Origin: Gammaproteobacteria bacterium
GTDB taxonomy: Bacteria > Pseudomonadota > Gammaproteobacteria > Steroidobacterales > Steroidobacteraceae
Length of the DNA stretch: 64,000 bases
NCBI GenBank assembly: GCA_947469285.1
Contig: CANIOW010000016.1
Span: 1 to 64,000 of the forward strand
Reading direction: 5' to 3'
Shown piece by piece: positions 38,481-52,191 of this stretch (its first letter is position 1; every line of letters begins with the position of its first letter). Made by a program: the position numbers and the translations under genes. The notes below the pieces were generated by a model. The model saw only the letters and a list, made by a program, of their open reading frames with translations, made no database searches and was not told the DNA's origin.

Positions 38481-39821
38481 CTAGAGCGCACCAATGGCGT
38501 GAGCTAGGCGCAGCCGCGACAACGCCAGATCGAATTCTGCGCCGTCACGGTCGCCGCTGGCTGCGGTACGCAGGCGCACGGCATCCAGCACCTGCGTGTT
38601 GCTGGTCAGCCCCGCGCCATACTGCTCGCGGCTCTGCCGTTCGTTCTCCGCTGCTTCCACCATGGCCGCCGCCGCTACCTGCAGCCGGGCCGCGGCGTCA
38701 TGCGTCTCCAGCCAGGCACTGCGGACTTGGAGTTCGACGCCTGAACGTGCGTCGTCTGCGCGCTGCGCGTTGGCGCGAGCAGCAAAACGCAGCGCAGCCG
38801 CGCGCTGGCGGGTAGCGCCGCCGTCGAAGAGTTGCCACTGTAGTCCGATGCCGACCATGGAATAGTTCTGCCGGTCGAGCAGTTGCGAGCCTACATGCTG
38901 CCAGCCGCCCGTCAGGGCCAGTTGCGGCCATTGTCGGCGTGCCTCTGCGGTGGCCTCTGCGCTTAACTGTTCCGTGCGTGAGCCAAGCGCAAACAGTTCA
39001 GGCCGCGCAGCCACGGCGGTTTTGATCAGCTCGGTCAGCGGCACGGCTTCACTGACGAGACTGGCTGGGAGGATCGCCTCGAGGTTCACCACCCGGTCTT
39101 GCGGTTCCCCGAGCTGCCGGTTGTAGGCAGCCAGCGCCAGCGCCGCGGTGTGGCTGGCGGTCAGCCGTTGTTGCTCGGCGTGAGCCAGCGACACCTTGGC
39201 CGCCAGTAGATCGCTCATGGGCACCAGATCTTGCTCCACCATGGCGGTTACATCGCGGTGATGGGACGCAAGCCCCGCTACGGTGGCTTCGGCGGTGGCG
39301 TGGCTGCGCACGGCGCGGAGGACCTCCACATAGGCGGCGGCCACCGCCAGCCGCAAGTCGGCGCCAGCGCTCGTGTGTAGTGCATCGGCGGCGCGTTCAG
39401 CGGCACGCGCGGCCTGGATGCCGGCAGTGAGACGGCCGCCGGTGAAGAGCGGTAGCCGCAATTCCACGCTGCCGAGCCGTAGCTCATCGTCGGCAAACAG
39501 CGGCGGTGAGCGGAATGCGAAGTCGGGAGTGGAGAAGGCGAGCGCAGGCGAGGCGGACAACCGGGAAATACTCCCGCTAGCGGTCAGAGTCGGGAGCCTT
39601 CCAGCCTGCGCGGCACGCCGCTCGGCCGTAGCCGCGGCCACGTCGCTGGCGGCGGCAGCGAGGAGCGGATCGTTGTGCGCGGCTTTATACCACGCCTCTT
39701 GCAGATTTTCGGCCGGCGCCGCGGCACTGGCACAGCAGCCTGCCAGCCAGACGCTGCTGAGAACCAGGCGGTGGACCCAGTGGCGTGTGGGGCGCTGCAG
39801 CTGCGCTGGCAGATTAGTCAT
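38481..39821 (-). CDS. TolC-family outer-membrane factor (lipoprotein type) of RND system 1
   Basis: The 446-residue protein has a lipobox 'LAGC' (Cys29) and two OEP repeats of the TolC/NodT fold with long coiled-coil stretches ('AARAAERAADALHTSAGADL'). It forms the outer-membrane channel. The ATG at 39821 overlaps the permease end by 8 nt; an upstream in-frame ATG lies inside the permease gene. Confidence 0.88.
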   Translation of the reverse strand: MTNLPAQLQRPTRHWVHRLVLSSVWLAGCCASAAAPAENLQEAWYKAAHNDPLLAAAASDVAAATAERRAAQAGRLPTLTASGSISRLSASPALAFSTPDFAFRSPPLFADDELRLGSVELRLPLFTGGRLTAGIQAARAAERAADALHTSAGADLRLAVAAAYVEVLRAVRSHATAEATVAGLASHHRDVTAMVEQDLVPMSDLLAAKVSLAHAEQQRLTASHTAALALAAYNRQLGEPQDRVVNLEAILPASLVSEAVPLTELIKTAVAARPELFALGSRTEQLSAEATAEARRQWPQLALTGGWQHVGSQLLDRQNYSMVGIGLQWQLFDGGATRQRAAALRFAARANAQRADDARSGVELQVRSAWLETHDAAARLQVAAAAMVEAAENERQSREQYGAGLTSNTQVLDAVRLRTAASGDRDGAEFDLALSRLRLAHAIGAL

Positions 39822-42800
39822 GAAGGCTTGCTCCGCTCTCGAGGGTGACCTGCTCATCCGGGCGGCCATGGGCCGCGCGCCGCGACAAGAAGGCGTAATA
39901 CAACACCGGGATGAGCACCAAGGTGAGCAATGTGGAAACGGCGATGCCGAAGATGAGTGACACCGCCAACCCGCTGAAAATGGGGTCGTCTAGAATGAAC
40001 AGTGCACCCAGCATGGCGGCCAGTGCGGTGAGTGTGATGGGCTTGGCGCGCACTACCCCGGCAGCCACCACCGCATCGGCCAGCAGCCGGCCGGCAGCGA
40101 CTTCAGAATTGATGAAGTCGACCAGCAGGATCGAGTTGCGCACGATGATGCCGGCCAGCGCGATCATGCCGATCATCGAGGTGGCCGTGAATTGCATGCC
40201 GAGCAGCGCATGGCCTGGCATGACGCCGATGAGCGTTAGCGGAATGGGGGCCATGATAATGAGCGGTACGGCATAGGAGCCGAACTGGGCGACCACCAGC
40301 AGGTAGATGAGTACCAAGCCCACGGAGTAGGCCAGGCCCATGTCGCGGAAGGTGTCGAGCGTGACTTGCCACTCGCCGTCCCATTTCACAGCGCTCAGGC
40401 CAGGGTCGGTGGGTGCGGAATTGAAGCGCTGTTCCACGTTCTCTAGACCGGCCGGGCTGTCATTAAGACGGCTCACGATGCCGAACATGCCGTACAACGG
40501 ACTGTCGAGCGGACCTGCCATGTCTCCCGTGACATAAGCGACCGGCAACAAATCTTTGTGATGGCGGGTGCTGTCCCAGGGCTCCTGTTGCAGGCTGGCG
40601 AAGGACGACAAGGACACGCGGGTGCCGTTGGCGGCCCGCACTTCCAGTGCCAATAGTTGCTGTGGCGCCGACTTCGCAACTACCGGCAGCTCTACGCGGA
40701 CGGCGACTGGCTGCTGGGTGGGTTCGGCGTGTAGGAAGGTGGCGTCGGTGCCAGCCAATGCAATGGCCACCACCTGGCTCACTTGCGCCTGCGTCACGCC
40801 GTAGTGTGCGGCGCGCTGCCGATCGATCACGAGGCGCCACTGGCGTGCGGGACCTTCGAGGCTGTCATTGACATCCACCACATCAGGCTCAGTAGTGAAC
40901 AGCTGACGCAAGTGGGTGGCAATCGCTATGCGTGCGGAGTGCGTGGCCGCGTAGACCTCGGCGACGATGGGGGCGTGTACGGGTGGGCCTGGCGGCACTT
41001 CTACTACCTGCACCACCGCTCCGTAGCGCTGCGCAATGGCGCTAAGCGCTGGCCTGACGCCGCGCGCAATCTCATGGCTGGAGCGCTGGCGCTGGTGCTT
41101 GTCGACGAGGTTGACCTGCAAGTCGCCGAGATGGGGCGCTTGGCGCTGCGCATATTGTCGTACCAAGCCGTTGAAATTAATGGGCGCCGCGGTGCCGGCA
41201 TAGGCTTGGTAATCGGTCACCTCCGGTACTTGGACGATGACCGCGGACAAGGCGGATAGCACGCGCGCGGTCTGTTCGACGGGCGCACCTTCCGGCAAGT
41301 CGACCACGACCTGGAATTCGCTCTTGTTATCGAACGGCAGCATTTTGAGCACTACCAACTTCACGCCGGCGAGACCGGCCGCGGCCACGATGGCCAGGGC
41401 AATGCCGCCATACAGGCGGTGCCGCCGACGGCGCGCCCCTGACTGGTCGAGTAATGGGCGCATGTAGCGTTCGAAATGACGCTCTAGCCAAGTATCGAGC
41501 CGGGACGCGCCGGCATGCGCCGCGCTGCTTTTTGCCAGCAGGCGACGGGTGAGCCAGGGCGTGAAGATGAGCGCGACCGCCAGCGAGATGAGCATGCCGA
41601 GGCTGGAATTGATAGGAATAGGGCTCATGTACGGCCCCATCAAGCCACTCACGAAGGCCATGGGTAACAGGGCCGCAATCACGGTGAAAGTCGCCAGAAT
41701 GGTGGGGCCGCCTACTTCGTCAACGGCGACGGGAATGATCTGGTCCGCATCGCCACCCCGGGCCAGATGGCGATGGATATTCTCCACCACCACGATCGCG
41801 TCATCGACGAGGATGCCGATCGAGAAGATCAGGGCGAACAGCGACACGCGATTTAGCGTGAATCCCCAGGCCCAGGAGGCAAACAGCGTGGCCGCGAGCG
41901 TGACCACCACCGCCGCACCGACCACCACCGCTTCGCGCCGCCCCATGGTCAGTACCACTAGCAACACCACGCAGGCGGTGGCGAAGAGCAGTTTCTGGAT
42001 GAGTTTTTGCGCCTTATCGTTCGCCGTGACGCCATAGTTTCGCGTCACTGTCAGGTGTACGTCGTCGGGGATTACGCTGCCGCGCAAGGTGTCGAGCCGC
42101 TGAAGCACCTGCTCAGCGACTTCGATGGCATTTTGTCCGGGCTTTTTAGACACGGCGAGCGTCACGGCTGGTGCATCGTCTACCCGCGGCAAGCCGCGCA
42201 GGCTGCGGCCGGCGCCGGTACCGAACCATACATAGGATTCGGCTTGATCGGGCTGCGCACGAATCTGTCCAAGATCGCTGAGATAGACCGGGCGATGGCC
42301 CTCCATGCCGACCACCAGTTCAGTGACCTCTTTGGCATCGGCCAGAAAGCCGCCGACGGTTACCGGTGCCTGTCCGGCGCTGCCGGTGGTGGCGCCCACC
42401 TGCCGCACCAGATTGGCCGCCTGCAGTCGGCCGACGATCTCATCGAGGGTCAGGCCATGGCCCGCCAACGCCGACGGGTCGAGCTCAACGTGCACTAACG
42501 GCGCTGGTGCACCCACGGTGTAGACATCTCGCGTGCCTGGCACGCGCTGCACTTCCGCTTCCACGGAGCGCGCGATGCGCCCTAGGTCGGCAGCGCCCTG
42601 CTGCCCGCCCTCGCGCCAGAGGGTGACGCTGAGTATTGGTACATCATCAATACTGCCAGGCCGGACGAGCGGCTTAAGCACGCCGAGGTTGGCCGGCCGC
42701 CAGTCTTCGTTGGCATAGATGGCGTTGTACAGGCGGACCACTGCCTCGGTGCGTGGTTCGCCCACGGCAAACTCCACGGTGAGCACGGCCAGTCCGGGCC

Positions 42801-43074
42801 GGGACGCCGAGTAGATATGTTTGATCCCGGAAATTTCTGCCAGCACCTGTTCCATCGGCGTCGCCACCAGGCTCTCCACCTCAGCGCTGGAGGCCCCGGG
42901 GAACGGGATGAATACATTGGCAAAGGTGACATCGATCTGCGGTTCTTCTTCGCGCGGCGTGACGAGTACGGCAAACAGGCCAGCGAGCAGGGCGAGGACC
43001 GCTAGCAACGGCGTTAACTGGCGGTTCAGGAAATAGCGGGCCAGCTGCCCGGAAAAACCGAGCGGGGTCTTCAT
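39814..43074 (-). CDS. RND efflux permease 1 (AcrB/HAE1-like)
   Basis: The 1086-residue inner-membrane pump has 12 predicted transmembrane helices and the two large periplasmic loops. The N-terminal '[20 protein letters not shown]' is TM1 and '[19 protein letters not shown]' in TM4 holds the paired proton-relay Asps. 'NSILLVDFI' near the C-terminus is typical. The cargo is unknown. It overlaps the membrane fusion gene by 4 nt. Confidence 0.92.
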
Positions 43075-44207
43075 GGAGCAGTGCCAGCGGGTGCCTGCGC
43101 TTGTTCGAGCCGCACTTGCTGCAGCGCCAGCGCGGTGTCTACGGCGATTTGATCACCCACGGAGACTCCTGCCAGCACCTCGCGACGCTCGCCACGCAAC
43201 ACACCCAGGCGCACTTGGCGGAGGCGCGTGCGCCCTTGCTGCGGTTCCCAGACATAAACGGCGGTGATCTCATCGCGTTCGATGATGGCGCTGAGCGGGA
43301 CGGACAGTTGAGTCGTGGCCGCTCCCGGGACGCCGACCGTGATATGGGCGCCCGGCAGTAGGCCAGTCAATGGGCCAGTCAATGGGCCAGAGATGTTGGT
43401 CGGCAGCGTGAAGCGGATACGGCGCGAACCACTGGCTGGATCGAGCACGGGGAAGACGGTAGAGGGGGCGAGTGTGAGCGGCCCCGAAGGCAGTAGCAGT
43501 ACGGCGTGGCCCGTGCTGCGTACGGCTTCAGCCGCGTCGGCCGGCAGGTCCACGCTCACCCGCAGCGCCTCGGTGGCTAGCAAGGTGAACAGCGGCGTGC
43601 CGCTGGCAACTGTCTCGCCGAGTCGCACCTGACGGGAGGTGATCACCGCACTATAAGGGGCAGTCACCTGCGTATAAGCCAGGCCTTCGCGGGCGGCGTC
43701 CACCCCTGCCCGCGCGGCCGCAAGGCGTGCCTGCGCCGCTTCATGGGCGGCGGTAGCGCTATCCAGCGTGGCTTTGGGTACCACCTGCCGGGCGTGCATC
43801 TCTGTGATACGCCCAAAGCGGTTCGCCGCTTCTACGGCCGCGGCACTGGCTTCGCGCAAAGCGGCCTCAGCCTGCAAGGCGCCGGCGCGCCTTTCGGCAG
43901 AACGTAAGCGGACCACCACACTGCCCGCCGCCACTCGTTGGCCAACATCTTGCAGCCATGCCGCTACCGTGCCGTTCGTTTGCGCGCTGATCTGGGTCTC
44001 GTTGACTGCTTCGACCTGGCCATCGAAGCGGCGCTCATTCGCGGTGCTGGCAGCCTGCAGGTGCTCCACGGCAAACGGGGCGGTGGCATTCGGGTTGCCG
44101 GCGGTGGGCGGCTTGGCGTGGCAGGCACCCAGCGACATCAGTAACACCAACCAGCCTGACAGGCGCAGCGGGCAGATGGCAGCAGGCGAAGCATGGTCCA
44201 GCAGCAT
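43071..44207 (-). CDS. RND membrane-fusion protein 1 (lipoprotein)
   Basis: The 378-residue periplasmic adaptor has lipobox 'LGAC' (Cys29), a barrel-sandwich hybrid domain with a helical hairpin and a beta barrel. 'SAQTNGTVAAWLQDVGQRVA' is the lipoyl half-motif and 'YTQVTAPYSAVITSRQVRLG' the second. The ATG at 44207 follows AGGGA. A tandem 12-bp duplication occurs within it. It is divergent from the ArsR gene. Confidence 0.9.
   Translation of the reverse strand: MLLDHASPAAICPLRLSGWLVLLMSLGACHAKPPTAGNPNATAPFAVEHLQAASTANERRFDGQVEAVNETQISAQTNGTVAAWLQDVGQRVAAGSVVVRLRSAERRAGALQAEAALREASAAAVEAANRFGRITEMHARQVVPKATLDSATAAHEAAQARLAAARAGVDAAREGLAYTQVTAPYSAVITSRQVRLGETVASGTPLFTLLATEALRVSVDLPADAAEAVRSTGHAVLLLPSGPLTLAPSTVFPVLDPASGSRRIRFTLPTNISGPLTGPLTGLLPGAHITVGVPGAATTQLSVPLSAIIERDEITAVYVWEPQQGRTRLRQVRLGVLRGERREVLAGVSVGDQIAVDTALALQQVRLEQAQAPAGTAP
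43361..43390. repeat. 12-bp tandem repeat inside the membrane-fusion gene
   Basis: GGCCAGTCAATG occurs twice in tandem and is followed by a half copy. In the protein it gives 'GPLTGPLTG', so copy changes would stay in frame. Confidence 0.75.
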
Positions 44208-44273
44208 GGCGAATTTCCCTAAGTGGCAGACCGAACCGCCACTGCGTTCCGAGGCACCAACCATGGGCAGTAT

Positions 44274-44310
44274 ATTAGCGGTAACTAATTTAGCAATACG
44301 TACATTAGCG
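44274..44310. promoter_or_regulatory. Three TTAGC(G/A) direct repeats at 15-bp spacing, operator candidate
   Basis: TTAGCG at 44275, TTAGCA at 44290 and TTAGCG at 44305 are 15 bp apart. The first also forms an inverted repeat ATTAG-N6-CTAAT (44274-44289). They lie in the divergent gap between the membrane-fusion gene and the ArsR gene, so the ArsR-type protein is the obvious candidate ligand. Confidence 0.6.
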
Positions 44311-44324
44311 ATATCGGAAATGCC

Positions 44325-44741
44325 ATGATTGGCTATACTGCGCCAATGAATGCTCTGAAACCCCGTTCTCGCGGAGCCACGTCGCGCCGCAGTACCACCG
44401 CCCGTCGGGGTGTGGCTGCTACGACCAGCGGCGTGGAAGATCTCTTGCCGCATGCCGAAAGCGCGGCCGGCTTACTGCGCAGCCTCGCTAACCCGCAACG
44501 ACTCATGATTCTCTGTCACTTAAATGGCGGGCCTCTGTCCGTCAGCGAACTGAACCTGCGCGTGCCATTAAGTCAGTCGGCGCTCTCGCAGCATTTGGCC
44601 AAACTTCGCGAGGGCGAGCTGGTGTTAACCGAGCGCGAGGGGCAGGTCATTCGCTATTCGTTGGCGCCCGGGCCGGCCGCCGCTGTCGTTGCAACCCTGC
44701 AGCGCCTGTTCTGCGCGGACACCTCGCGCAAGGGCCGGTGA
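44325..44741 (+). CDS. ArsR-family repressor with BigR/SqrR-type cysteine pair
   Basis: The 138-residue winged-helix protein has 'SVSELNLRVPLSQSALSQHL' as the DNA-binding helix pair (about 72-91). It lacks the ELCVCD metal site of arsenic and cadmium sensors. Its only cysteines are Cys64 in 'MILCHL' and Cys130 in 'RLFCAD', spaced by 66. This is the same spacing as Cys42/Cys108 of BigR and Cys41/Cys107 of SqrR, which form a polysulfide bridge when reactive sulfur rises. It likely represses the divergent RND pump. A later ATG at 44346 is also possible. Confidence 0.85.
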   Translation: MIGYTAPMNALKPRSRGATSRRSTTARRGVAATTSGVEDLLPHAESAAGLLRSLANPQRLMILCHLNGGPLSVSELNLRVPLSQSALSQHLAKLREGELVLTEREGQVIRYSLAPGPAAAVVATLQRLFCADTSRKGR

Positions 44742-44745
44742 GCAC

Positions 44746-45642
44746 ATGAATCTACGTGATCTCAAATATCTCGTGGCGCTGGCCGACACGCGCCACTTTG
44801 GCAAAGCGGCTGCGCGCTGTTTCGTCAGCCAGCCCACGTTGTCGGCGCAGATCAAGAAGCTGGAAGATTACCTGGGTGTGCTGCTCGTAGAGCGGCAGCC
44901 GCGTAATGTGGCGCTCACCGCCGCCGGCGAGCTGGTGGTAGAGCGTGCCCGTCGCGTGGTGCGCGACACGGACGACATTGTCGATCTGGTGCAATTATCC
45001 CGGGACCCGCTCGCCGGAAAGTTGCGGGTGGGTCTCATCCCAACCATCGCGCCTTACTTGTTGCCACGCGTCGCAACACGCTTGCGTAAAGCGTTACCAA
45101 AGCTGCAGCTGCTGTTATTTGAATACCAGACAGGTCCCATGCTCCACAAGTTGCGCGCCGGTGACATCGACATGGCGATCTTGGCATTGCCCATAGAAGA
45201 CGACGGCTTCGACAGCCAGTCACTATACGCAGAAGCGTTTCTGGTGGCGGTTCCCACCGGACATCGCTTTACCGAGCAGACCAGCGTCCAGCTGGCAGAC
45301 CTGAATGGCGAGACCCTGCTGCTGCTGGAGGATGGTCACTGCTTGCGTGATCAGGCGCTGGAGGTGTGCAGTCGCCTTGAAGTGAATGAAGAAACGGACT
45401 TTCGCGCCACCAGTCTTGAAACGCTGCGCCAGATGGTGGGAGCGGGCCTTGGCATTACGCTCATGCCGCAACTGGCCACGGAAGGTCCGTTTGCGGCGGG
45501 TAAGCAGCTGGTCATCCGGCCGTTTGCGGCGCCCCCGCCGGGCCGTACCGTGGGCGCGCTCTGGCGCCGCAGTTCCACCCGGCAGCCGGCCATTGCCGCC
45601 GTCAATGCGGTCATCGCCAAGGCTCTGGAGCAGGCGCCGTGA
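44746..45642 (+). CDS. oxyR: LysR-family peroxide-sensing regulator OxyR
   Basis: The 298-residue protein has the LysR helix-turn-helix 'FGKAAARCFVSQPTLSAQIK' at the N-terminus. Cys199 and Cys208 in 'EDGHCLRDQALEVC' are at the same numbers as in E. coli OxyR, where they form the H2O2-sensing disulfide. The ATG at 44746 lies 4 nt after the ArsR stop, and the end overlaps yheU as GTGA. Confidence 0.94.
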   Translation: MNLRDLKYLVALADTRHFGKAAARCFVSQPTLSAQIKKLEDYLGVLLVERQPRNVALTAAGELVVERARRVVRDTDDIVDLVQLSRDPLAGKLRVGLIPTIAPYLLPRVATRLRKALPKLQLLLFEYQTGPMLHKLRAGDIDMAILALPIEDDGFDSQSLYAEAFLVAVPTGHRFTEQTSVQLADLNGETLLLLEDGHCLRDQALEVCSRLEVNEETDFRATSLETLRQMVGAGLGITLMPQLATEGPFAAGKQLVIRPFAAPPPGRTVGALWRRSSTRQPAIAAVNAVIAKALEQAP

Positions 45643-45908
45643 GCCAGAACGACAGCGACGGGCAGCCCGCGTCGCCCGAAGAGCCGTCCGAGCCGGTGGT
45701 GGTGCCGCCTGAGGCGCTAGCGGCGGAACTGCGCCGCGCGGTGATCGAAGCCTTCGTGCTGCGTGAGGGCACGGAGTATGGCGAACGTGAATTCACCCTC
45801 GAAGAAAAAGTGCAGCACGTGGAAGGGCAGTTACTGAAGGGGCTGGTGCAGATCGTTTTTGATCCGAACACGCAGAGCATCGACCTGCGGCTGAAGGACC
45901 GGCGCTAG
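45639..45908 (+). CDS. yheU: YheU-family protein (UPF0270)
   Basis: The 89-residue protein matches YheU from 'VPPEALAAELRRAVIEAFVL' through 'REGTEYGEREFTLEEKV', with about 20 extra acidic residues in front. The function is not known. It starts with GTG, overlapping oxyR by 4 nt. Its stop overlaps that of the convergent pump gene. Confidence 0.88.
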   Translation: MSQNDSDGQPASPEEPSEPVVVPPEALAAELRRAVIEAFVLREGTEYGEREFTLEEKVQHVEGQLLKGLVQIVFDPNTQSIDLRLKDRR

Positions 45909-48900
45909 CCCGGCGAACGGACGGTCACCGCAGGCGGAAACAGCTTGTACATGGCTGGCGTCACCAGCCGCGCCAGCAAGGTGGAGGATAACAGCCCGCC
46001 AATGATGACCACCGCCAGCGGCGAGTACAGTGGTGAACCCTGTACGGCCAAGGGCATCAGTCCCCCGATGGCCGTGGCGGAGGTCAGCAGAATGGGGAAA
46101 AAGCGGATCTCGCCGGCCTCCTCAATGGCCGCATCCAGTGTTTTGCCATCGGCGCGCAGCTGGTTGGTGAAATCTACCAGCAAGATAGAATTCTTGATCT
46201 CGATACCGAGCAAGGCGAGCAAGCCGATGATGCCCGTGAACGACAGCGTATAGCCGGTCAAGAGCAATGCCAGCAATGCGCCGGTCACGCCGAGCGGCAC
46301 CACGGTGGCCACGATGAGCGTGGAGCGGAAGCTGCCGAACTCCAGCACCAACACCGCGAGGATACCAAAGCCAGCCACCAGAAATGCAGTGCCGATGCCC
46401 CCGAAAGCTTCCTCGCGAGCTTCTACTTCACCGGCCGCGGTGAGGCGGTAGCCGGCGGGCAGATGTAGTTCCCGCTCCAGTCGCTGCAGCAAGGCGCGGG
46501 TGACCTTGTCGGTGCTGAAGCCGGTGACGGTGTAGGCAGAGATGGTGACCTGCCGCTCGCGACTAAACCGATTGATGACGTTGGGCGCAGTTTCAAAATG
46601 TGGCGCGGCAATCTGTGACAGTGGCACTTGCTGGCCGGTGACAGTATTGACACGAATTTGTGGCAGCATCTCCAGCGTTGGGCGATCGGTGATCGGCAGG
46701 CGCAGCATGATGGGGTATTCGTCGCCGTCCGCCTCGCGAAATTTACCGAGAGCCTGCCCGGCAATGGCCACCCGCACAGTGCGGTCGGCCTCTACTGGCG
46801 CCACGCCCAGCAGTGCGGCTTTGGCAGGGTCGATGCCCAGGTTCAGATCGGTACGGCTTAAGCGGACCGGGTTATTGATGTCGCGCAAACCCGGCAGGGT
46901 CTTCATGATGCCTTCGAGTTCACCAGCCAGTCGACGCAGCGTCGCCAGTTCCGGGCCGGTGATTCGCATGGCCACCGGGGAGTCCACGGGTGGCCCATTT
47001 TCATACTGCTTAACGGTGATGCGGGCCGCCGGGTAAGCGCGGAATTTTTCGCGCAGCACATCGAAGAACGCTGGAGTATGGCGCGGCTCGAATTGGTGGA
47101 GTTCCACCAAGATATCGCCGATGTTGGCGGAAGTGCCGCGTGGAAAGACGTTGTAGTAGATAAAGGCCTGACTGTGCCCCACGTTAGTGAACCATTGCTT
47201 CACTTCGCGATGTCTGGCGAGTTCCGCTTCCACAAACCGCAGTGCGCTGTCGGTTTCCAGCAGGCTGGCACCATCTGGGGCATCGACGCGAATCATGAAC
47301 TGCGGCACATCGGCCATCGGGAACACACTGACACCGATGACTGGGATGAGCGCGAGCGACCCAAAAAATACCGCACTGGCGGCGAGCAGCGTGCGCTTGG
47401 GTTTCAGTAACGCCCAACGCAAGGCTGGGCCATAGACACGGTGGATGGTGCGCATGGTGCGCTGTAGTAGGCGGTCGGCCAGAGCGTCGATCCGCGCCAA
47501 GCGTCCTTGGCCCTCGGTGCCTGGGTTGCGCAGCAGGCGGGAGGAGAGGAACGGGATGATGGTGTAGGCAACGATCATCGACGAGATAACGGTCATCATG
47601 ACGGCCGCGGGTAGCGAACGGATGAAAGCGCCTGAGCCACCGGGCAAAAACAGCAGCGGGAGGAAAGCAAATAACAGTGCCGCCGTGCAGCCGAGCACGG
47701 CCAGCGCAATTTGGTCTGTGGCCAGGATGGCTGCTTCGCGACGGCTGTGGCCCATGCGGATGAAGCGGGCGATATTCTCTACCACCACGATGCTGTCATC
47801 GACCAGCAGCCCCAAGGCGAGGATGAAGCCGGCGATGGAGAGCTGGTTTAATGAGAAGCCAGAGAAATACAGCGCGGACAGTCCCATGGCGAGCGATAAC
47901 GGAATGGAGAGCATGACCACACCGGCGGCGCGCATGCCCAGTGGCAATAGGGTGATCAGCACCAGTGCGATGGCGATGGCGAAATCTTGCCCGAGGCGAG
48001 TGAGGCGCCGGTCGACATTGCGGGACTGGTCGAAGCCGGGCGCGAGTTGGATGTCTTTGGGCAGGCCCCGCGCGTAGTCGGCAAAGGCCTGTTCCACGCC
48101 TTCGCGGACTTTGAAGATGTTCTGGTTGTCTTTCTGACTGGCGGTAATGAATACCGCACGGTGCCCGTTGTAGCGACCGAGATAGCGGTGCTCTTCGGTG
48201 GACCAGGACACGGTGGCTACATCCCGCAGCCGGGCGACGCGGCCGTGGTTGGCGCCAACCACGGTGTCTGCCACTTCCTGCAGCGTTTTGTAGGCGCCGG
48301 TGGTTTTAAGGTCGTAACGGCGCAGGCCGGCATCCACCGCACCGCCCGGAATGCTGGCATTTTCTCCTTGCACGGCCAGGGCCAGTTGTTGCAGCGTTAC
48401 CCCAGTACGACCGAGGCGTTCAAGATCCACTGCAATGCGCACCTCGGGGTTCGGGTAGGCCCAGGTTTCTGCCTGCCGAATACCGGGGACGCGTTCCAGC
48501 CGGTCCTTGAGTTCGCGCGCACGCTTTTCCAGTTCGCGCCAGCTGGCGGTGTCACTCACCAGCGCGGCTTGCAGGATGTTGGCTCGCGCCGGGTTGGCGC
48601 GTCGCAGGTCGATGTAAGCCAGATCCGCGGGCAGCTGCGGTCTTAGTCGGTTGAATTCACGGATGACGTCGTCCTGCTTTTTCTCAGGATCGCCCACATA
48701 GTTGAATTCGACATGCACCAGCGCCAGGCCATCATAGGCACTGCTGATGATCTTCTTCACATCATCGAGCTCGTTGATGGCATCTTCGATGGGGTCCACC
48801 ACCAGCCGTTCCATCTCGCCGGGATCGGCGCCGGGATAGGCGATGGTGATAGTCACTGCCGGGAAGGCAAATGCCGGGTCTTCGGCGCGCGGCATGTTGA

Positions 48901-48988
48901 GATAGCTGTTCAGGCCCACGGCGACCAGCAGCCCAAACATCACCAGCGTGAACTGCCATTGGCGAACGGCGAACGCCCAGATGCGCAT
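45905..48988 (-). CDS. RND efflux permease 2 (HAE1-like)
   Basis: The 1027-residue pump has 12 helices. 'RQWQFTLVMFGLLVAVGLNS' is TM1 and 'LGLLVDDSIVVVENIARFI' holds the paired Asps of the proton path. '[20 protein letters not shown]' lies in the C-terminal half. It differs clearly from pump 1. It is 8 nt downstream of its adaptor gene. Confidence 0.92.
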   Translation of the reverse strand: MRIWAFAVRQWQFTLVMFGLLVAVGLNSYLNMPRAEDPAFAFPAVTITIAYPGADPGEMERLVVDPIEDAINELDDVKKIISSAYDGLALVHVEFNYVGDPEKKQDDVIREFNRLRPQLPADLAYIDLRRANPARANILQAALVSDTASWRELEKRARELKDRLERVPGIRQAETWAYPNPEVRIAVDLERLGRTGVTLQQLALAVQGENASIPGGAVDAGLRRYDLKTTGAYKTLQEVADTVVGANHGRVARLRDVATVSWSTEEHRYLGRYNGHRAVFITASQKDNQNIFKVREGVEQAFADYARGLPKDIQLAPGFDQSRNVDRRLTRLGQDFAIAIALVLITLLPLGMRAAGVVMLSIPLSLAMGLSALYFSGFSLNQLSIAGFILALGLLVDDSIVVVENIARFIRMGHSRREAAILATDQIALAVLGCTAALLFAFLPLLFLPGGSGAFIRSLPAAVMMTVISSMIVAYTIIPFLSSRLLRNPGTEGQGRLARIDALADRLLQRTMRTIHRVYGPALRWALLKPKRTLLAASAVFFGSLALIPVIGVSVFPMADVPQFMIRVDAPDGASLLETDSALRFVEAELARHREVKQWFTNVGHSQAFIYYNVFPRGTSANIGDILVELHQFEPRHTPAFFDVLREKFRAYPAARITVKQYENGPPVDSPVAMRITGPELATLRRLAGELEGIMKTLPGLRDINNPVRLSRTDLNLGIDPAKAALLGVAPVEADRTVRVAIAGQALGKFREADGDEYPIMLRLPITDRPTLEMLPQIRVNTVTGQQVPLSQIAAPHFETAPNVINRFSRERQVTISAYTVTGFSTDKVTRALLQRLERELHLPAGYRLTAAGEVEAREEAFGGIGTAFLVAGFGILAVLVLEFGSFRSTLIVATVVPLGVTGALLALLLTGYTLSFTGIIGLLALLGIEIKNSILLVDFTNQLRADGKTLDAAIEEAGEIRFFPILLTSATAIGGLMPLAVQGSPLYSPLAVVIIGGLLSSTLLARLVTPAMYKLFPPAVTVRSPG

Positions 48989-48996
48989 GGCGTGGC

Positions 48997-50040
48997 TTAG
49001 CGCCGCACGGTGACGTGGTCACCGGCAGTGACAAAGGAGGCGCCATCCACCACCACCCATTCGCCGGGGCGCAGGCCTTCGAGTACTTCCACGCGTTCGC
49101 CGACCAGCCGTCCGACCCGCACCTCGCGGCGTTGTACCACGTCGCCTTCGACCACCATGACCACGGCACGGTCGGCGCTGGCTTCAAGCAACACGGTGTT
49201 GGCCACCACGGGCACTGGCGTGGCCTTGACATCGACGGCGCGGGGCAGCCAGGCGCGTGCAACCATGCCGCGGGCGAAACCCTCAGCCGTGTCCTTCACC
49301 ATCACCTCGATCTGAAAGGTCCCGGTGACCGGATCGGCAGCGCGCGCCACGTTGCGGACTTCACCGAGAAAATCGCGGCCGGGATAAGCGTCGAACTGCA
49401 GGCGCGCTGGCAGGCCGGGACGCAGCTGCACCACTTCACGATCGGCGACGCCGAGTTTTACGACCCAGCCTTGGTTGGTGCCGCCCACTACCAGTACCGG
49501 CTGTCCGGCCGGAACCAGTTCATCGCGTTGCACGAGTTTTTGCAGCACCACCCCGTCGGCTGGCGCTTCAATGCGCGCATAGCGCGCATTGAATTCCACA
49601 GCTTGCAGTTGCGCAGCGCTGACTCGTGCGGCCGTGGTCAGGTCGTCAAGATTTTCCCGCGTGGCCACGCCGTCGGCAAACAGCGCCTGCCCACGCTCCA
49701 GATCGCGGGTGGCTTTGGCGGCGGCTTCGCGCGCTTGCGTTGTGGCAGAGCGAATTTCCGTTTCCCGCAAGCGTGCCAGCAGCTGTCCGCGGCGAATGCT
49801 TTGGCCTTCTTCAACGAGCATGGCTTCCACCACGCCGCCCATCTTGAACGACAGCCGCGCCTCATCCAACGGCGCCAGCAGACCCACGGCGCGAATGTCG
49901 TCGGTGAGTACGGCATTGTTCACTGCGGCGACGCGCACGCTCCGGACCGGACGGTTGTCGACGGGCGGTGGGTTGCTGGCACTGCAAGCGGTCAGAGCAA
50001 GGCAGAACGCCAGCAGTGTGTAGCGGTTTACAGTGTTCAT
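48997..50040 (-). CDS. RND membrane-fusion protein 2 (lipoprotein)
   Basis: The 347-residue adaptor has lipobox 'LTAC' (Cys19) and the paired lipoyl motifs 'VVEAMLVEEGQSIRRGQLLA' and 'YARIEAPADGVVLQKLVQRD'. It is the middle gene of the OMF-MFP-permease operon; its start overlaps the OMF stop by 4 nt. Confidence 0.9.
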   Translation of the reverse strand: MNTVNRYTLLAFCLALTACSASNPPPVDNRPVRSVRVAAVNNAVLTDDIRAVGLLAPLDEARLSFKMGGVVEAMLVEEGQSIRRGQLLARLRETEIRSATTQAREAAAKATRDLERGQALFADGVATRENLDDLTTAARVSAAQLQAVEFNARYARIEAPADGVVLQKLVQRDELVPAGQPVLVVGGTNQGWVVKLGVADREVVQLRPGLPARLQFDAYPGRDFLGEVRNVARAADPVTGTFQIEVMVKDTAEGFARGMVARAWLPRAVDVKATPVPVVANTVLLEASADRAVVMVVEGDVVQRREVRVGRLVGERVEVLEGLRPGEWVVVDGASFVTAGDHVTVRR

Positions 50041-51500
50041 GGGGTGATACCAGTGTCGATGCCAGATGGCGTGCGGCCGAGGGCGTAGTCGAGTTGGGCC
50101 AGCGCGGATAAGGCGCCCAAGCGGGTGCCGTCGATATTCAGGCGGGCCGCCGTCAAGGTGCGCCGTGCGTCGATAAATTCCGCCTGATTGGCGGCGCCCA
50201 GATCGCGCTTGCGCGAGACGATACGAAACGCCCCTTGCGCGGCGAAGACTCGCTGTTCAGCGGTGCGTAGCGAGGCGCGTTGCACCAGAAAGTCTTCGAC
50301 GGCCTGTTGCACCTCCCGGTTCACTTGGAAGGTGGCATCTTCACGGCGTGCGCGGGCTTCATCAAGACGCGCCGCGGCAACGGCGAGGCCCGCGCGGTCT
50401 GCGCCCCCGGAGAATAAATTGAATTTCACCACGACAGAGGCGAGAGCAAAACGCTCGTCGGCAGAAAAGCCGTAGCGGGTGCCTTGGATGCCCGTGGTCA
50501 GTTGCAGTCCCACCTGTGGCTGGAACGCGGCACGAGCCGCGCGTCCGCTGGCGCGTGCGCCATCAATGGCGGCATCTAACTGCTTGAGCTCAGCGCGGGC
50601 GGCCAGCGCGATGGGCTGCAGTGCTGCGGGTGACAGCGCGGCGTCGTCGACCAGGGCGAGATCCCCAGGCACCACCAGGGCTTCTGGCAGGGGTGTGTTG
50701 CCCGGCTTGGCACGCAGGGCATTCACATAGACGGCCAGCTGGCCGTCGGCGTTGCGCATTTCTAATACTTGCTGCTCTACTTCCAACAGGTCGGCGCGGG
50801 CGCGAAAGACCCGGTCTTCAGTGACTTTTCCGGCGCGGAACAAGCTGTCATTGATGCGCAAGTTTTCCGTCGCCAGTGCCTCGGTTTCCTGCAGCACCAC
50901 TTGCCCCGCACGCGCGCGCAGCCAGGCGTAGTAGGCCTGCTTCAGGTCACGGGCCAGACGTACGGCATAGGCCTCGCTGCTTGCCGTACTGGCACGCAGC
51001 TCTGCTTGCGCGGCGTCGCGCCCTGCGCCGAGACGGGCGTCGTACAGTGGCTGCGTCAGGGTCAGTGTGGTTTCCTGCTCGCGCTGGCGAATAAACGTGA
51101 ACTGCTGGTTAGCGATGCGTGGAAACTGCGCTGGGTGCCCTTGGGCGACCAGTTGTGCATCCAGCGCGGCGTACACCGGATTGAGCAAGTCACCCAGTGG
51201 AAATTCGATGGTCCGGCCGCCATCCGCTCGCGTGTACCGGGCGGAGAAATCGAGGGACGGCGCATACCGCGCCCGGGCACGGTCCAGTTCGGCCAGCTGA
51301 CGGGCCACACCGGCCTGTTCGGCCTTCAGGCCTTGGTTGGCCGCCAGCGCCTCCGTGACCAAGGCGGTGGTGGTGTCCGCGAGACTCAGCGTGGGCACCT
51401 GGGTCGTCCCCAAGGCCGGCCACAGCAGCGCCAGCAGCAGCCCGTAGCCGCAGGTGCCTCTGGTCGGCGGGGTAACAGCAGGGGAAGGCAGACGCTGCAT
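50037..51500 (-). CDS. TolC-family outer-membrane factor of RND system 2
   Basis: The 487-residue channel protein has a signal peptide ('GYGLLLALLWPALGTTQ') and two OEP repeats. It lacks a lipobox, unlike the OMF of system 1. I chose the ATG at 51500, 11 nt after the regulator stop; a frame from 51539 would overlap the regulator. Confidence 0.88.
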   Translation of the reverse strand: MQRLPSPAVTPPTRGTCGYGLLLALLWPALGTTQVPTLSLADTTTALVTEALAANQGLKAEQAGVARQLAELDRARARYAPSLDFSARYTRADGGRTIEFPLGDLLNPVYAALDAQLVAQGHPAQFPRIANQQFTFIRQREQETTLTLTQPLYDARLGAGRDAAQAELRASTASSEAYAVRLARDLKQAYYAWLRARAGQVVLQETEALATENLRINDSLFRAGKVTEDRVFRARADLLEVEQQVLEMRNADGQLAVYVNALRAKPGNTPLPEALVVPGDLALVDDAALSPAALQPIALAARAELKQLDAAIDGARASGRAARAAFQPQVGLQLTTGIQGTRYGFSADERFALASVVVKFNLFSGGADRAGLAVAAARLDEARARREDATFQVNREVQQAVEDFLVQRASLRTAEQRVFAAQGAFRIVSRKRDLGAANQAEFIDARRTLTAARLNIDGTRLGALSALAQLDYALGRTPSGIDTGITP

Positions 51501-51510
51501 CGCTGGAGTC

Positions 51511-52155
51511 TCAGGCGGCGGGGTCGGTGCACAGAGCATGGCGGAGCAGCAAGATGGCTTGATCGGCCAGCTGTTGCAGGGGCAGACCTTGCCGTGCCAA
51601 TGCGGCGCTCTTGGTGGTCATCAGTTGCAGCGTGCCGTGCATGAAACCCCACAGCGTCAATGCGGTGGCCATGGAGGCGCCTAGGTCAGGGCGAATGCTG
51701 CCATCGGCGCGCCCGGCCTCCAGGGCTTGCACCACTTCAGCGAGCACTGCGTCGCCAGCGGCAGCACAGGCGGTGAGGGTGTCGCCTCCCTCAGCCGGTT
51801 GCAGGGCCGCCTGAAACCGCGCGCAGGCGTCAAAATAGTGAGGAAATTCATGTGCGAAGGCCATGTAGGCGCGGCCGATCGCTTCGATCTTGTCCGCACC
51901 GCAGCCGTGCGCAGCGGCGGTGTGGAAGCGTTGCTGCAGCAAGCCGAAGGCGCGCGTGACGATGACCAGGTGCAGGTCATTGCGGTCGCGGAAGTACACA
52001 TAAAGCAAAGCGCGTGACAGCCGGGCTTCGCGCGCCAACTGGTCCATGGTCAGGCCGTTCCAGCCCTGCGTGGCGTAGAGGCGCTCGGCGGCTTCGATAA
52101 TTTCGAGGCGGCGCTGCTCTTTTTCGGTTTCGCGACGTTCGGTCAGGTAGGACAT
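51511..52155 (-). CDS. TetR/AcrR-family repressor
   Basis: The 214-residue regulator has the TetR DNA-binding domain: 'RLEIIEAAERLYATQGWNGL' then 'TMDQLAREARLSRALLYVYF'. The C-terminal ligand domain is all helical. It is the first gene of the pump 2 operon. I chose the ATG at 52155, with AGGA 7 nt upstream; upstream ATGs at 52176 and 52185 are less well placed and overlap the operator candidate. Confidence 0.9.
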   Translation of the reverse strand: MSYLTERRETEKEQRRLEIIEAAERLYATQGWNGLTMDQLAREARLSRALLYVYFRDRNDLHLVIVTRAFGLLQQRFHTAAAHGCGADKIEAIGRAYMAFAHEFPHYFDACARFQAALQPAEGGDTLTACAAAGDAVLAEVVQALEAGRADGSIRPDLGASMATALTLWGFMHGTLQLMTTKSAALARQGLPLQQLADQAILLLRHALCTDPAA

Positions 52156-52174
52156 GCGGCCATCCTGCCGCGTC

Positions 52175-52191
52175 ATTGACACCACGTCAAT
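52175..52191. promoter_or_regulatory. Inverted repeat upstream of the TetR gene
   Basis: ATTGAC-N5-GTCAAT has 6-bp arms and lies 20 nt before the ATG. It is the likely autoregulatory operator of the TetR protein. Confidence 0.5.

Follow-up and report, generated by a model that had tools for sequence, protein, structure and literature searches.

Genes at the locus

The window (the whole 64,000-nucleotide stretch of DNA analysed here) contains a gene for an ArsR repressor of the SqrR/BigR/HlyU/YgaV type (arsR, positions 44325–44741, + strand), followed on the same strand by oxyR (44746–45642) and a yheU-like gene of the UPF0270 family (45639–45908). Only 4 nt separate the arsR stop codon from the oxyR ATG, with a ribosome-site-like GGTGAG seen by eye across the junction, and the yheU-like gene overlaps the end of oxyR. 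The arsR ATG at 44325 has the sequence GGAA just 5′ to it; an alternative ATG at 44346 is possible, and its use would shift the cysteine numbers given below by 7.

Divergent from arsR on the − strand is a block of three genes (44216–38481) encoding a periplasmic adaptor (MFP, 43071–44216), an RND permease (RND1, 39814–43074) and a TolC-type outer membrane channel (38481–39869, with a likelier start, judged by eye, near 39821). The adaptor matches HlyD_3 and HlyD_D23, scores above the cut-off for RND_mfp and has what appears by eye to be a lipoprotein-like signal. With MFP, ACR_tran permease and OEP channel encoded in order, the block specifies a tripartite pump and is presumably co-transcribed. 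An earlier, sequence-only reading of this DNA had described arsR as divergent from an RND operon and as leading straight into oxyR and yheU, and it was right on both counts, coordinates included.

The proton relay of AcrB comprises an aspartate pair in TM4 and a lysine in TM10. RND1 retains the TM4 aspartate pair (DD) and has an arginine, Arg979, at the place of the TM10 lysine of RND2 (and of AcrB). This arginine is found in 39 of 40 aligned RND1 sequences (two of them the window itself), the fortieth having a gap. RND1 scores 446 bits against a drug-type model and 201 bits against CusA/CzcA, both below cut-off, and the CzcB-like score of the MFP also lies below its NCBIfam cut-off. RND2 is a second permease (45905–48988, − strand), an ancestral neighbour of oxyR–yheU that lies outside the sulfur module. 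No structured RNA reached the gathering threshold between 38000 and 52500.

The ArsR regulator

The translated ArsR protein is 138 amino acids long and contains exactly two cysteines, Cys64 and Cys130 (numbered from the ATG at 44325), with a spacing of 66. When ArsR was compared with the PDB using phmmer, SqrR, HlyU, YgaV, NolR and BigR ranked first, and in the five alignments displayed the cysteine pair aligns with cysteines of SqrR (6o8l) and HlyU; the SqrR residues matched are C41 and C107. Both cysteines are kept in all 110 aligned ArsR sequences, the window included, a count that is biased towards conservation by 80 loci found with search patterns that included the cysteine peptides. The spacing is 66 in 106 of these sequences and 67 in the remaining four. 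In a set found without cysteine-containing patterns the pair is again kept in 30 of 30 sequences (window included), these being 30 of the 48 matches listed and mostly the best-scoring, with the other 18 weaker.

The AlphaFold model of ArsR has a mean pLDDT of 85, with residues 1 to ~34 weakly predicted. Its nearest structures are those of SqrR, HlyU, BigR and YgaV (Z 14.7–16.4), the SqrR forms among them being the reduced, diamide-treated, tetrasulfide and disulfide proteins. Structures of metal sensors come next, at Z 13–14, so the fold alone separates the two groups modestly, and it is the cysteine pair and the absence of metal ligands that carry the argument for a persulfide sensor. Metal-responsive ArsR proteins have a CxC motif in helix 3 or a His/acid site in helix 5. 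By eye, ArsR has no CxC motif, and its predicted last helix (residues 117–136) has no histidine. Two cysteines spaced as in BigR and SqrR, and no metal site, were exactly what the sequence-only reading had reported.

Among NCBIfam models, HTH_metalloreg gives 78.9 against a cut-off of 55, a model that covers the ArsR family in general, and the BigR equivalog NF040642 gives 73 bits against a cut-off of 155, for which reason we do not name the protein BigR. What ArsR shares with the SqrR/BigR/HlyU/YgaV group is the cysteine pair, the closest fold and sequence and the lack of a metal motif; the group's sulfide-metabolism neighbours are seen in the loci of relatives rather than within the window itself. 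The chemistry that defines the group is a di- to tetrasulfide bridge formed with persulfides, accompanied by loss of DNA binding, and a lack of reaction with H2O2. Clustered by similarity, SqrR, BigR and HlyU fall together as sensors of reactive sulfur, while H2O2 sensors are placed separately (PMC10509353).

A conserved dyad over the predicted pump promoter

The intergenic gap between arsR and the MFP gene, 108 bp in length, holds a conserved dyad, ATTAG-N6-CTAAT. When arsR upstream regions were lined up by eye, the common element was TATATTAG-N6-CTAATTTAG, and in the window we propose TATTAG-N6-CTAATTTAG at 44273–44293, in the divergent promoter region, as the operator. A search for sigma-70-like consensus sites found one match where 0.4 was expected. 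It lies on the pump strand (TTGCTA/16 nt/TATACT, 44269–44296, − strand), where it is the candidate promoter of the pump genes, and the proposed operator covers its spacer. No + strand sigma-70-like site for arsR or oxyR was found in 44100–46000.

With at most one mismatch, 37 of 45 pump-bearing loci have the dyad upstream of arsR (15 exact), a set that includes the window, two loci in which the RND protein is a distant homologue (L035 and L068, 34–36%) and the near-duplicates L012/L056, L003/L031 and L085/L097. It is likewise present in 32 of 65 other homologous loci (16 exact). Within-sequence letter shuffles reach it in 0.8% (pump loci) and 1.9% (others), although the shuffle and Fisher controls ignore relatedness, and downstream stretches contain it in 0 of 45 and 0 of 65 loci. 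A gap of 5 gives 0 pump loci and 4 others, and a gap of 7 gives 4 and 1, respectively. The eight pump loci without the dyad at this threshold include five (L045, L073, L077, L093 and L103) with no dyad at two or fewer mismatches in the 360 nt searched. Being widespread both with and without a pump, the dyad seems to serve as operator for a large part of this group of regulators.

Within this genome the extended pattern TATTAGN6CTAATNTAG occurs exactly once, at 44273–44293, over the predicted pump promoter, which points to a dedicated local switch. A wider regulon was considered and rejected: allowing three mismatches gives 19 places, as against 61 for a reversed-pattern control, so weaker matches do not rise above the control and we claim the exact site only. 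The nearest of these weaker places to the PDO-rhodanese gene described below is ~8 kb away from it.

Sulfur genes around the pump in related genomes

Homologous arsR loci were annotated by BLAST against the window proteins, and their neighbours were named using Pfam, NCBIfam and the PDB. An RND1/MFP1 pump is present in 26 of 80 named loci, with the MFP gene divergent from arsR in 24 of the 26. Sulfide:quinone oxidoreductase (SQR) is encoded in 17 of the 26 pump-bearing loci and in 0 of the 54 pumpless ones, the BLAST query being a single type of SQR; since 16 of the 54 pumpless loci (and 6 of the 26 pump-bearing loci) are shorter than 12 kb, some absences may be due to truncation. Among the pump-bearing loci of culturable relatives, that of Solimonas variicoloris (L036) has SQR and that of Luteimonas marina (L043) has none. 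The identity of the SQR neighbour comes from its match to PDB 3sz0 (E 6e-169), no NCBIfam SQR cut-off being reached. The gene lies between MFP and arsR in several loci, including those of Lysobacter and Dyella; elsewhere it separates RND from TolC or is the next gene after RND, as in several members of the window's own family. A persulfide-dioxygenase-like MBL protein is a further neighbour (nearest NCBIfam profile Blh, below cut-off; PDB matches including ETHE1).

A survey of 78 related genomes gives a similar picture, with RND1 (at least 58% identity) in 27, SQR in 17 and both in 15, that is, in 15 of the 17 SQR genomes (Fisher 3.6e-7, relatedness ignored). Judged by eye from the coordinates, 12 of these 15 pairs are on one strand and no more than 2 kb apart. 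Of the 27 relatives with the pump, 16 have an ArsR gene at most 2.6 kb from RND1 and 11 have none within that distance; in one of the 11 (G015) a contig break is the probable cause.

In the present genome, the RND and TolC genes abut at the point that SQR occupies in several relatives, and SQR was not found elsewhere in the assembly with the query that was positive in 17 of the 78 relatives. A homologue of BpPRF (PDB 5ve3), a persulfide dioxygenase-rhodanese fusion, is encoded on contig C1 (E 1e-153, with ETHE1 and rhodanese matches too), so sulfane sulfur may be handled by another route here.

Other genes recur beside the module in some relatives. An OsmC-like gene (called by BLAST to the Pfam OsmC protein of L004) adjoins RND1 on the side away from arsR in 8 of the 26 pump loci (L043, L051, L060, L066, L077, L085, L090 and L097). 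Old-yellow-enzyme (N-ethylmaleimide reductase-like) genes lie directly 3′ of arsR in L033, L034, L005/L114 and L008/L117 and are present in 2 of the 26 named pump loci; neither they nor OsmC-like genes occur in any of the 54 pumpless named loci. In L031 and L003/L112, the gene after arsR encodes a luciferase-like monooxygenase, and the dioxygenase-like gene is divergent.

At class level the permease is found in other company. RND1 matches at 1e-200 in at least 175 of 369 class genomes, in tiers of ~53–63% and 42–45% identity, and SQR is present in 103; the two lie within ~2 kb of each other in four genomes among the matches listed (G234, G327, G344 and G385, by eye). In 20 RND1 contexts of 13.5–14.5 kb from other families, no SQR was found and ArsR (at least 40% identity) was near RND1 in two (L229 and L233). 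The idea that RND1 is intrinsically linked to sulfur was therefore dropped, since most of its homologues at ~53–63% identity have neither ArsR nor SQR close by. We therefore see a general pump family, one subfamily of which appears to have joined the sulfur module. A tree of 81 RND sequences, built with a quick method, agrees: the window falls in a clade of 39, of which 37 have ArsR (support 95), a grouping confounded with taxonomy and with the source of the sequences (arsR search or RND search). In 12 of the 20 class-level contexts (in the range L215–L231) a LysR gene lies beyond the permease; in L215 and L227, the two examined, it is followed by a small gene and then an AI-2E-type transporter gene.

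The changed neighbourhood of oxyR

OxyR is a LysR protein in which Cys199 is the peroxidatic and Cys208 the resolving cysteine. The window protein retains both C199 and C208, and its best PDB matches are OxyR proteins. Against the NCBIfam equivalog NF008361, the best of 52 families, it scores 300.6 bits with a cut-off of 329, so the name rests on the cysteine pair and the PDB matches. It is the sole OxyR match in this genome at E ≤1e-15.

In three genomes of the same genus (G001–G003) the order is rimO–oxyR–yheU, with oxyR 77–79% identical to that of the window. RND2 lies beyond yheU in G002 and G003, the contig stretch of G001 ending first. The present genome retains yheU and RND2, but its rimO lies on contig C4 and the arsR–pump block stands in the place of rimO; in G003, arsR–MFP is found at another site, next to an AMP-binding gene. 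A rimO–oxyR spacer of ~240 nt in G003 is replaced here by the 4 nt after arsR. That the block has replaced rimO suggests capture of oxyR by the repressor's operon, and with the spacer replaced and no + strand promoter seen, the most economical interpretation is that expression of oxyR has come to depend on the promoter of arsR.

Could the adjacency be an accident of rearrangement, the sensor and pump forming a sulfane-sulfur module by themselves and oxyR having its own promoter inside arsR, or receiving negligible read-through? We consider this somewhat unlikely. The presence of rimO, the usual upstream gene, on another contig indicates that a rearrangement did happen, and adjacency to oxyR had to be discarded as a conserved association: the arsR–oxyR order is absent from all three same-genus genomes, and no OxyR-like gene (at least 40% identity) was found in the 26 named arsR–pump loci. 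Against an accident are the 4-nt gap with its GGTGAG, the lack of a + strand sigma-70-like site over the interval searched and the replacement of the spacer that the genus has 5′ of oxyR. The adjacency is thus real but local. The sequence-only reading is partly supported as a whole, and the coupling to peroxide sensing that it put forward holds only at the level of gene order, with the status of this oxyR as the only match in its favour and the absence of that order in same-genus genomes and named pump loci against it; any functional link between oxyR and the arsR–pump unit is predicted from position. Another arsR–oxyR neighbourhood occurs in L044 (5633–7339), from a Beijerinckiaceae MAG, where an OxyR-like gene (47%) precedes an arsR homologue by ~530 nt, with no pump.

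Comparison with known systems

In fold, in the places and spacing of its cysteines and in lacking a metal site, ArsR resembles SqrR of Rhodobacter capsulatus, BigR of Xylella and Acinetobacter, HlyU of Vibrio and YgaV of E. coli; it differs from them in its apparent targets, which are an entire RND pump and, judging from gene order, oxyR. In E. coli, oxyR is not known to lie inside the operon of a persulfide repressor.

The company that ArsR keeps is already in print. A survey reports sqr, pdo, rhodanese and RND efflux genes as neighbours of sulfane-sulfur ArsRs (PMC12423496); the text consulted describes no operator for this pump, no anatomy of an SQR–RND operon and no linkage to oxyR. In Azospira suillum, efflux pump, SQR and RND MFP genes lie in one operon (Dsui_3440–3443) that is highly expressed under H2S oxidation and has a Bar-seq fitness effect, although deletion of the whole operon left the H2S oxidation rate unchanged (PMC5358917). 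In gene content this operon is like the SQR–pump loci of the window's relatives, but the word ‘ArsR’ appears nowhere in that paper's text. MexR and MexAB–OprM offer a parallel, in that sulfane sulfur releases a thiol-based repressor from the RND pump operon next to it (PMC11211675). MexR, however, belongs to the MarR family and uses inter-subunit cysteine chemistry. MexR–MexAB–OprM is not known to be linked to SQR. In the openly licensed PMC literature (title and start of abstract), no RND export of octasulfur and no arsR–oxyR operon was found beyond PMC12423496 and PMC5358917, and no named substrate was found there for RND pumps near sulfane-sulfur regulators. What is new, on a known kind of sensor in known company, is the conserved site, the absence of SQR and the apparent capture of oxyR.

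In E. coli, OxyR is itself a sensor of sulfane sulfur (PMC6831875), and with C199 kept the OxyR of the window could do the same. YgaV, for its part, binds the katG promoter, which OxyR also controls (PMC9774250). Crosstalk between sulfur and peroxide responses therefore has precedent; counting against it, the responses of A. baumannii to sulfide and to H2O2 are largely independent (PMC7315123).

A model for the locus

Our preferred reading, to which we give a probability of roughly 0.7, is that ArsR is a sulfane-sulfur sensor and repressor of MFP–RND–TolC, and that transcription from the arsR promoter probably extends through oxyR and yheU. From the features above we infer a persulfide/polysulfide-sensing repressor of the SqrR/BigR/HlyU/YgaV group. 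The reduced dimer would bind ATTAG-N6-CTAAT at 44273–44293, blocking the leftward MFP–RND–TolC promoter and probably also its own rightward promoter. Persulfides would link Cys64 and Cys130 by a polysulfide bridge, releasing ArsR from DNA and allowing transcription in both directions. The pump would derive from a sulfide-detoxification operon, which includes SQR in many relatives, and its probable task is to clear a toxic compound that arises in the metabolism of sulfide or sulfane sulfur. Because SQR is absent and the block lies directly before the only oxyR, the arsR promoter probably serves oxyR and yheU too, and the expression of both probably rises with sulfane sulfur; the arrangement suggests that one sulfur signal may control both pump and oxyR. 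Sulfur-stress control of the pump, as proposed in the sequence-only reading, is well supported by inference from the type of sensor, the dyad over the predicted promoter and the SQR and dioxygenase-like genes of relatives. If the model is correct, the operon of one sensor carries a second, a natural rewiring that may place peroxide defence under a sulfur sensor.

It is unlikely that ArsR is instead a general thiol-redox switch responding to peroxide, hypochlorite or electrophiles, with a pump that exports electrophiles or oxidised products and oxyR part of a single oxidative-stress operon. The cysteines of BigR and HlyU can be sulfenylated (PMC5823870), and the old-yellow-enzyme and OsmC-like genes that adjoin the module in some relatives would suit such a role, but H2O2-sensing ArsRs form a separate cluster (PMC10509353) and the pump loci are linked to SQR.

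The preferred sulfane-sulfur model also has a stronger form, which we regard as doubtful. Here the RND1 subfamily would be a dedicated sulfane-sulfur exporter, its cargo being products of SQR such as hydrophobic polysulfanes, octasulfur or small molecules in persulfidated form, and the genome's only oxyR would have been captured by a persulfide repressor, arming peroxide defence ahead of peroxide. An SQR-linked pump clade behind one conserved site offers a handle on whether RND pumps export reactive sulfur.

That ArsR responds to a metal or metalloid and controls an RND pump for metal efflux is very improbable, and this candidate was rejected: its family, the HTH_metalloreg score and the below-cut-off CzcB-like score of the MFP would fit, but no CxC motif, helix-5 histidine or other ligands were seen by eye, the closest structures are of non-metal sensors and the drug-type score of RND1 exceeds its CusA/CzcA score, both below cut-off.

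Facing the oxyR–yheU end of the locus is a second RND system (45905–52185), comprising a permease, an MFP and an OEP together with a TetR gene, which is probably an ordinary TetR-controlled pump.
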